Shown here: piece by piece, positions 4,088-62,725 of the stretch
Numbering within the stretch: position 1 is the stretch's first letter
Layout of the letters: each line of letters starts with the position of its first letter
From: Lachnospiraceae bacterium
GTDB taxonomy: Bacteria > Bacillota > Clostridia > Lachnospirales > Lachnospiraceae
DNA: 64,000 bases
Direction: 5' to 3'
Assembly (NCBI GenBank): GCA_028692395.1
Contig: JAQUXP010000002.1
Coordinates: 62,001 to 126,000, forward strand
Translations under genes and position numbers: made by a program
The notes under the pieces: generated by a model
Databases searched by the model: none
Seen by the model: the letters and a program-made list of their open reading frames with translations, nothing else
What the model was told of the DNA's origin: nothing

Positions 4088-4332
4088 GGAGCTGTCGCTC
4101 TTCGGTGGCCGCAAGTCCCCCTCTGAGGCCTGAACACGGTTTCGAAGTCCAAGAGTATAAAAAAAAACAACCGATTTTGCTAAAATCATAAGAAATCATC
4201 ATAAACTCGCTGCGCTCAGACAGTATGCTGATTTCTTATAACGCAAAATCGGTTGTTTTGGTATACTTAGGACTTCTGCAAATGTGTTCAGGCCTCATAG
4301 GCGACTTGCGGCCACCGAAGTGCGACAGCTCC
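4088..4332 (+). repeat. long imperfect hairpin element, copy A (about 245 nt, followed by T6)
   Basis: Arms ggagctgtcgc-cttcggtggccgcaagtc...tgaggcctgaacac are near-perfect reverse complements of 4280-4332; perfect 16-bp inner helix 4164-4179/4244-4259; apical helix 4188-4203/4224-4239; homologous to 15681-15919. Confidence 0.9.
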
Positions 4333-4415
4333 TTTTTTGGGGGGATTCGATGGCTATCGGGGAATTGTTTATAAAAATTTTCGTATTTTTTTGTATATTT
4401 ATAATAAAAAAAGGG

Positions 4416-4444
4416 TTGCCATATTTCACCAATACGTATAAAAT
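4416..4444 (+). promoter_or_regulatory. promoter of the marR-ABC operon
   Basis: TTGCCA (4416-4421), 17 bp, TAAAAT (4439-4444). Confidence 0.6.
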
Positions 4445-4445
4445 A

Positions 4446-4461
4446 AGTTAGACGACTAACT
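4446..4461 (+). promoter_or_regulatory. probable MarR operator (autoregulation)
   Basis: Perfect inverted repeat AGTTAG-ACGA-CTAACT just downstream of the -10 box and upstream of the marR RBS. Confidence 0.65.
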
Positions 4462-4475
4462 AAAGGAGGAGACCA

Positions 4476-4976
4476 TTGGATTATAACGGAGAAAATGCCG
4501 GGGAGAAAGAGACTGTTCAGCGATGTCTGATGCATATCGTCCACAGCTATACAGCGATATTATTTAGGCAGCTTTCGGAGTATGAGCTTTATCCGGGACA
4601 GATACCGGTGATTATGATTGTTGAAAATCACGACGGATTAAGCCAGAGTGAAATCTGCCAAAAACTGCATATTAAGGCTTCCACAGTTGCAGTTTCCATG
4701 AAAAGGATGGAGAAGAAGGGACTGATTTGCAGGAAGGCAGATGATAAGGATCAGCGTATTACAAGAGTTTATGCTACGGATCAGCTTCATATGATGCATG
4801 ACAGAATTAAGGCACTGGTGAAAGAGGATGAGGAACTGATGCTGAAAGGATTTACAGAGGAGGAAGTCTGTCTTTTGGATGGATTACTGAATCGACTGCT
4901 TGGAAATCTGGAGGTTTTCCAGCCGTCCTGCTGCAGGTCAGACAGAAAAGAAAGAATGAGGAGTAATAAGTTATGA
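4476..4976 (+). CDS. MarR-family transcriptional regulator
   Basis: wHTH pattern (LSQSEICQKLHIKASTVAVSMKRMEKKGLICRKADDKDQRITRVY); TTG start behind aaaggagga. Confidence 0.9.
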   Translation: MDYNGENAGEKETVQRCLMHIVHSYTAILFRQLSEYELYPGQIPVIMIVENHDGLSQSEICQKLHIKASTVAVSMKRMEKKGLICRKADDKDQRITRVYATDQLHMMHDRIKALVKEDEELMLKGFTEEEVCLLDGLLNRLLGNLEVFQPSCCRSDRKERMRSNKL

Positions 4977-15652: not shown

Positions 15653-15680
15653 GTCCTAAAAAACGCCAGAATCAAAAAAA

Positions 15681-15919
15681 GCTGTCCCGCTTCGGTGGCT
15701 GGGAGCTCCTTAGGAGGGCTGAACACATTTGCAGAAGTCCTAAGCATAGGAAAAAGAATAGAATTTGCGTTGTAAGCATGCAGCACACTGTTTAAGTGAA
15801 ACGAGTTTGTGCTGCATACTTACGTTTTTAGCAAAATCTATTCTTTTTTTGTATGCTCTTGGACTTCGAAACCGTGTTCCGCCCTCCTAAGGAGCTTCCA
15901 GCCACCGAAGTGGGACAGC
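15681..15919 (-). repeat. long imperfect hairpin element, copy B (inverted orientation relative to copy A; T7 on minus strand)
   Basis: Arms gctgtccc(g/a)cttcggtggctgg(g/a)agctccttaggagggc reverse-complementary; apical helix 15772-15786/15809-15823; reverse complement aligns with 4088-4332. Confidence 0.9.
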
Positions 15920-15949
15920 CCCCCCTTGGTTGATTCTGAACAGTTATCG

Positions 15950-39777: not shown

Positions 39778-39853
39778 TGTGCAAAGATTCTGGCTTTGGA
39801 GCATTCGGATGTGCTTTGACAGGTGTCTAATTAGATAAAAAAAGAAAGTAAAA

Positions 39854-39901
39854 AGAGATATAAAAAAGTCATCCTCGAAAGGATGACTTTTTTATATCTC
39901 T
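39854..39901. terminator. bidirectional terminator between small ORF and rpmB
   Basis: Perfect 21-bp inverted repeat agagatataaaaaagtcatcc-tcgaaa-ggatgacttttttatatctct with T runs on both strands. Confidence 0.9.
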
Positions 39902-40085
39902 ATGCTCTTTCTACTTTGCCTGATCTTAAGCAAGAAGTACAAACATACATTTTCTGAGGATTACCGTTAACCTTAACCTTTACAGATTTAACATTGGATT
40001 TCCACATTTTGTTTGATCTTCTATGTGAATGACTTACATTGTTTCCGAAATGAGCAGCTTTTTCACAAATAGCACATTTTGCCAT
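39900..40085 (-). CDS. rpmB: 50S ribosomal protein L28
   Basis: MAKCAICEKAAHFGNNVSHSHRRSNKMWKSNVKSVKVKVNG. Confidence 0.95.
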   Translation of the reverse strand: MAKCAICEKAAHFGNNVSHSHRRSNKMWKSNVKSVKVKVNGNPQKMYVCTSCLRSGKVERA

Positions 40086-62390: not shown

Positions 62391-62490
62391 AGTGAAAAAG
62401 GTTGCGTGCACAGGTTTTTTGTGATATGGTATTGAGGTCTAATAGAATAACGAATTAAGTGTCTGTCAGTAGAGAAAATATTCTATCCGG

Positions 62491-62657
62491 TAATTAAGGG
62501 GAATATCTCGATACTGACAGGAAAGAGGGAATCAGGTGAAAATCCTGAGCGATTCGGTCACTGTAAGAGGGGAATCTGATTTAGAATCCATTGCAGCGTA
62601 TGCTGTGAGAAGGTAAATCAAGGTAATGATCCCAAAGCCAGGAAACCTGCTTAATTT
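62491..62657 (+). ncRNA. cobalamin (B12) riboswitch aptamer
   Basis: gagggaatcaggtgaaaatcctgagc, cggtcactgtaa, B12 box aaagccaggaaacctgc; P1 taattaag/cttaatt. Confidence 0.92.
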
Positions 62658-62725
62658 GAGTAAAGATGAAGCTTCCGTAAAAAGCAACATCTGGGAATGA
62701 ACTTTCAGGAGAAAGTTTGTTTTTG

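Follow-up and report, generated by a model that had tools for sequence, protein, structure and literature searches.

A dispersed family of long intergenic hairpins with a conserved tip in Lachnospiraceae and other bacteria

We lean towards the view that the long hairpin described here (copy A), found between two genes in the genome of a gut bacterium of the Lachnospiraceae, is a member of a large, gene-less, dispersed family that is mobile by means of a putative tip-reading enzyme and whose stems are rewritten with one arm as the template for the other. Members of the family are numerous, lie between genes and occur patchily; they have a nearly fixed tip, conserved internal loops and stems that differ in sequence and are paired, and at one Ralstonia locus the element is present in some genomes and absent from others.

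Structure of copy A

The window is the whole stretch of DNA analysed, 64,000 nucleotides long. Copy A lies in it between two plus-strand genes, one for a 618-aa protein that has acyltransferase-like and DUF6320 matches and one for a MarR regulator. Positions 4088–4340 fold into a single long imperfect hairpin of −152.5 kcal/mol, compared with −62.1 ± 4.5 kcal/mol for 200 shuffles of the same interval (0/200 as stable, z = −20). A preliminary description had placed a near end-to-end hairpin at 4088–4332, with TTTTTT directly after the 3′ arm, and the same arms and T-tract were recovered at the same positions. Its apical helix is also present, although with one mismatch (CATCA vs TGCTG), and the tip proper is 4204–4223. 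It had reported no credible ORF, which agrees with our finding that the sole ORF of at least 80 aa touching copy A is antisense (4236–4544, 102 aa) and looks spurious. The parts of copy A, and the second copy in the window, are:

4088..4332, plus strand: hairpin element copy A, whole (fold, and at least 73 tip copies in the genome)
4088..4120, plus strand: left outer arm with TIR-like end GGAGCTGTCGCtCTTCGGTGGCC, 33 nt, 94% complementary to 4300–4332 (inverted-repeat search)
4138..4155, plus strand: conserved internal-loop strand GGTTTCGAAGTCCAAGAG, nearly invariant in alignments A1 and A2
4165..4180, plus strand: left side of the 16-bp helix, AAAACAACCGATTTTG-C, paired with 4243–4259 in the fold
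4179..4187, plus strand: left strand of internal loop, GCTAAAATC (the GCTAAA/TAACG loop, conserved in the genome and enriched in other phyla)
4204..4223, plus strand: conserved tip AACTCGCTGCGCTCAGACAG (pan-bacterial exact matches)
4209..4215, plus strand: mini-hairpin GC-TGC-GC within the tip (C7-G11 and G6-C12 pair swaps across loci)
4240..4244, plus strand: right strand of the GCTAAA/TAACG internal loop, AACGC (same basis as its left strand)
4266..4284, plus strand: partner strand CTTAGGACTTCTGCAAATG of the GGTTTCGAAGTCCAAGAG loop, nearly invariant in A1 and A2
4300..4332, plus strand: right outer arm, partner of 4088–4120 (inverted-repeat search)
4333..4338, plus strand: T-tract TTTTTT 3′ of the right arm (about one-third of hairpin sides in the genome have one)
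15673..15922, minus strand: copy B, of the second subfamily, with tip AACTCGTTTCACTTAAACAG at 15788–15807 and 78% identity over the entire element

Copies in the source genome

The source genome (G000, 3.14 Mb in 61 contigs) holds at least 73 copies by tip search, against 4 control matches. The preliminary description had seen two; the homologue that it placed 11 kb away is copy B, whose inverted repeat spans 15681–15919. Searching the whole genome with the element as DNA gave 75 matches, many of which are one place found on both strands. Alignment is possible for two subfamilies, A1 (24 copies) and A2 (27 copies), and additional copies have stems of their own. In the subfamily of copy B, the tip pair C7-G11 is replaced by T-A.

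Near-invariant in both A1 and A2 are the tip, the GCTAAA/AACGC loop and the GGTTTCgaAGTCCAAGAG/CTTAGGACTyCTGCAAATG loop, and the internal-loop strand GGTTTCGAAGTCCAAGAG is still recognisable in genome G004 despite unrelated stems. The outer arms of the source-genome copies are highly variable, and in some copies unrelated, yet they are always paired. An end sequence, GGGGCTGTCGCACTTCGGTG, occurs 67 times in this genome, many times as facing pairs about 225–245 bp apart. Some copies are nested or palindromically extended into copy-specific flanks (L012, L017, L015).

Two long copies (L372, L383) lack exactly the tip and apical helix, apparently through a central deletion. Such tip-less long copies, and short hairpins that share the outer stem, look like decay products. 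We considered insertion of the element into pre-existing CTGTCGCAC terminators but rejected it, as the short hairpins that have this stem (L373, L375, L378, L379, L381, L382) are more simply read as remnants after central loss.

Genomic position and termination

The copies of the source genome sit just past genes: 65 of the 68 classified are downstream of at least one gene and 3 lie between divergent genes, these classes being based on simple ORFs, so that single cases may be misclassified (e.g., copy A counts as "convergent" through its antisense ORF). The base of the hairpin is a median of 13 nt from gene 3′ ends, and where the flanking genes are in tandem, the tip strand is the gene strand in 29/39 cases. 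A T-tract is found at the base of about one-third of hairpin sides, compared with 11% of control windows. Genome G381 shows neither a T-tract excess nor an orientation preference.

The preliminary description had taken copy A for an oversized, terminator-like intergenic element with one homologue, a reading that is supported in part. Copy A is located behind a gene and is followed by a T-tract, but the element belongs to a large dispersed repeat family rather than being a lone RNA in two copies, and termination is a side aspect. A simple terminator scan gives copy A no score because its loop is too large. Termination may be a side effect of the hairpin in the source genome, and a terminator role leaves the conservation of the tip across phyla unexplained.

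Occurrence across bacteria

The tip, AACTCGCTNCGCTCARACAG, is 20 nt long, lies at the tips of hairpins and is nearly unchanged across very different phyla. Searched with up to one mismatch (AAACTCGCTNCGCTCANACAGT), it occurs in 27/397 sampled genomes of the family (one control match). Of 301 genomes of the phylum, 17 have the tip. The family copies L044–L073 that were folded all have it within a hairpin, mostly a long one, with stem sequences that differ, and the median arms of the 167 Lachnospiraceae copies collected are 121 and 117 nt. When 85,488 species genomes (264 Gb) were scanned with a 21-nt tip pattern, at least 120 stretches matched, compared with about one expected by our own estimate of chance (19 fixed bases, one two-fold position, both strands). 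Among the matches listed are Bacteroidota, Pseudomonadota, Nitrospirota, Patescibacteria, Gastranaerophilales, Bacillota and others. These tips also sit in hairpins: an arm score of at least 10 is reached at 86% of 135 non-Lachnospiraceae tips vs 6% of random positions in the same loci.

Copy numbers can be high, with 58 tip copies in G381, 55 in Arcicella rosea, 37 in Ralstonia sp. A12, 23 in a Barnesiella, 22 in Cellulophaga sp. BC115SP, 21 in Alkalibaculum and 19 in a Nitrospira (0–4 control matches per genome). Occurrence is patchy within families and within genera, i.e., between species of one genus, and the tip was not found in E. coli genomes. Several copies (in G418, G644 and G015) are no more than 70 bases from a contig end, so the hairpins probably break assemblies and the copy numbers are underestimates. 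Many Proteobacteria and Bacteroidota have another small hairpin, of the TTTGGTTACTTTTG-CAAG-CAAAAGTAACC type, after the tip hairpin (e.g., L445, L446, L447 and L036-like loci); the window copies lack it.

The GCTAAA/TAACG loop recurs outside the family as well. Both of its halves are present at 18/128 loci of other phyla, compared with at most 4 in 500 shuffles, and this motif played no part in choosing those loci. Within the tip, positions 7/11 over 302 loci are C-G in 267, T-A in 33 and changed on one side in 2, and positions 6/12 are G-C in 290 and A-T in 6. These two pairs covary, so the tip holds a small stem of the form GC-TNC-GC. Most T-A cases come from the second subfamily of the source genome, however, making the independent events few and the tip covariation a matter of few lineages. 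The reverse strand of the tip, CTGTTTGAGCGAAGCGAGTTT, is an open frame reading LFERSEF; at several loci, small spurious ORFs contain this peptide and may be misannotated as proteins.

How the stems change

Stem changes come in pairs. Counting cells that depart from the commonest pair, changes on both sides that still pair number 207 in A1 and 352 in A2, against 126 and 137 one-sided mismatches. In A2, 96.6% of cells are paired, with both-side changes at 356 vs 74.6 ± 6.9 when shuffled and 60–100 when the partner is slid; covariation is 0.385 vs 0.111 shuffled. Homologues thus abound and their pairing is conserved, the two points on which the preliminary description had staked the element. Transversions make up about half of the double changes in both subfamilies, and one-sided G·T and A·C mismatches are about equally frequent (35 vs 50 in A1, 40 vs 47 in A2). 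Deletions can be mirrored too: L153 has lost 11 nt at exactly opposite positions of both arms, and L159 and L164 show single-base mirrored deletions.

The same pattern is seen between strains. Ralstonia genomes RS650, RS647 and RS642 have left flanks identical at 398/400, 398/400 and 396/400 positions and right flanks identical at 320/320 or 400/400, and among them element A has 4–7 of 30 pairs changed on both sides and 0–1 changed on one. Between RS650 and RS647, Ralstonia elements A and B seem to have traded stems, and an exchange of this kind between copies may account for some of the paired changes with no need for template switching.

Stepwise compensation in an RNA would pass through G·T pairs and would leave no mirrored deletions; copying of one arm from the other or exchange of whole stems would leave them. 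That template switching homogenises inverted-repeat arms in DNA is established (PMC8604942, PMC7202029). Sequence comparison points to paired stem changes that reflect arm copied from arm, and not slow compensation under RNA selection.

The balance of isolated wobble mismatches varies between genomes, with G·T 27 vs A·C 10 in G004 and the opposite (16 vs 48) outside Lachnospiraceae. This strand asymmetry in some genomes would still allow the hairpin a role as RNA or as a single strand. As a test of the acting strand, the comparison of G·T with A·C was dropped, because its answers disagree between genomes.

Probable mobility and putative partner enzyme

At the nirD/FAD-oxidoreductase locus, R. 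wenshanensis and Ralstonia sp. RRA.1 carry the element, whereas three other Ralstonia and two Cupriavidus megaplasmids lack it. The filled and empty sites belong to different species, which are too diverged to fix the boundaries or a target-site duplication, and loss in some lineages rather than gain is possible. By eye, the flanks of copies in the source genome have no direct repeat, and some have a palindromic extension. No autonomous parent was found between facing ends among 18 further loci with such ends or related pieces. A search for an empty site in Pasteurellaceae prophages gave only a 78-bp match in phage records.

Two ideas on mobilisation were set aside. RAYT/IS200 (PF01797) shows no association with the hairpins in 49 family and 21 other-phyla genomes, and cassette arrays are not what is seen where copies cluster, as those in G381, G067, G282 and G058 flank ordinary unrelated genes.

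We infer that the element would be non-autonomous mobile DNA, moved in trans by a putative enzyme that recognises the folded strand (tip and loops) rather than linear ends. Synthesis, repair or exchange between copies would replace both arms together, by template switching or by replacement, and so keep them complementary. Stems could then drift fast without unpairing while the tip and loops would be held by selection, and the copies just past gene ends in the source genome may also terminate or cap transcripts. A trans-acting enzyme on the folded strand and a universal host factor would both fit.

Alternative explanations

The hairpin could instead be a structured RNA made from the upstream genes, whose tip and loops bind a protein or an RNA, or which acts as a terminator or 3′ stabiliser, with RNA selection driving the compensation. 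Much about the source genome agrees with this: hairpin bases close to gene 3′ ends, few copies between divergent genes, a tip strand that mostly matches the gene strand, enriched T-tracts and covarying tip pairs. Against it stand the equal frequency of G·T and A·C, the half share of transversions, the mirrored 11-nt deletion, paired change on the time scale of strains, the behaviour of G381 in T-tracts and orientation, and the lack of an Rfam match, and we judge it unlikely. Alternatively, the DNA might form a cruciform to which a host protein binds, for instance a nucleoid or topology factor. Very long intergenic palindromes suit such a site, as does a wobble-pair strand preference that is inconsistent across genomes, but a cruciform has no need of a 20-nt tip with asymmetric internal structure and would not be expected to be patchy between species of one genus, which makes this improbable.

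The remaining two readings invoke known kinds of mobile DNA. A classical MITE would have arisen by deletion from a DDE insertion sequence and would move by way of its TIRs (in the source genome, GGGGCTGTCGCACTTCGGTG), and the shared ends in many copies of both subfamilies, high copy number and non-coding sequence are in keeping with one. The ends are conserved in only part of the source genome, however, many outer arms are different, and it is the interior that is conserved, the reverse of a MITE; with no target duplication seen by eye and no autonomous element at the 18 further loci, we give this reading little credence. A repeat of the REP/REPIN or "TIR" type mobilised by RAYT (a Y1 tyrosine transposase) would likewise yield palindromes dispersed outside genes, and there are descriptions of RAYT genes with flanking TIRs (PMC3733652). 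Many carriers have no Y1_Tnp match, though (e.g., G004, G232, G405, G282, G384, Nitrospira, Barnesiella and Bacteroides), and at the fetched loci no tip lies within about 1.5 kb of a Y1_Tnp gene except for one weak match with 4 mismatches. These two results largely refute the RAYT reading, which we regard as very improbable.

Comparison with known systems

Rfam, to which the preliminary description had suggested comparing the element, has no match on it in the window or at 17 other-phyla loci. The only hits were sub-threshold plant microRNA hairpins, which have the long-hairpin shape alone in common with it. We found no description of the tip or the element in open-access papers, and one may exist elsewhere.

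REPs are 20–40 bp long, carry a GTAG or CGTC tag and are often located beside a RAYT gene (PMC3733652, PMC8266576, PMC3116915), and RAYT genes with long flanking TIRs in place of REPs are on record (PMC3733652). Like REPs, REPINs and BIMEs, the hairpins are dispersed, extragenic, palindromic, present in many copies per genome and often downstream of genes. They differ from REPs in having arms of about 100 bp, a conserved tip and no RAYT association, and the source-genome alignments contain no GTAG or CGTC foot. ERIC is a single long stem-loop (PMC2267715). The hairpins resemble it (by its description) and other MITEs (RUP, NEMIS, Nezha) in being gene-less and 100–300 bp long. MITEs have conserved ends and a parent IS, whereas here it is the tip that is conserved across phyla, and the ends are variable.

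Integron attC sites lie in cassette arrays beside the integron integrase. Both would be recognised in the same way, as folded single strands whose stems vary and whose unpaired bases are conserved, but the hairpins are single and dispersed between ordinary genes. Quasipalindrome correction by template switching (PMC7202029, PMC8604942) similarly makes the arms of inverted repeats identical; it is described as a mutation process at short imperfect repeats, however, and not as what drives a dispersed family whose tip is fixed.

The hairpin family works like REPs or MITEs and fails their defining features where these were tested, and there is a real chance that it is a class of its own. More tentatively, and with the odds somewhat against us, we suggest a pan-bacterial gene-less class without fixed ends, in which identity would lie in the folded tip and loops and the stems would be rewritten on both arms. 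Because stems would be continually rewritten, sequence comparison would miss the kinship between copies. If this is true, many phyla contain, at tens of copies per genome, a repeat family that was overlooked because its stems defy alignment. Its long palindromes would also serve as a natural archive of copying between arms at the scale of strain divergence, and would imply that the tip is read either by a widespread enzyme that mobilises the element or by a universal host factor, which could be tested in culturable Ralstonia, Bacteroides and Flavobacterium.

Other features

The sole Rfam match in the window is a cobalamin riboswitch (RF00174) at 62479–62668 on the plus strand (79.9 bits). A separate 38-nt inverted repeat at 39838–39917, with A-rich and T-rich arms that are 84% complementary, is possibly a bidirectional terminator. 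At locus L034, a TPP riboswitch (1176–1283) lies a few hundred bases from a G004 hairpin copy.
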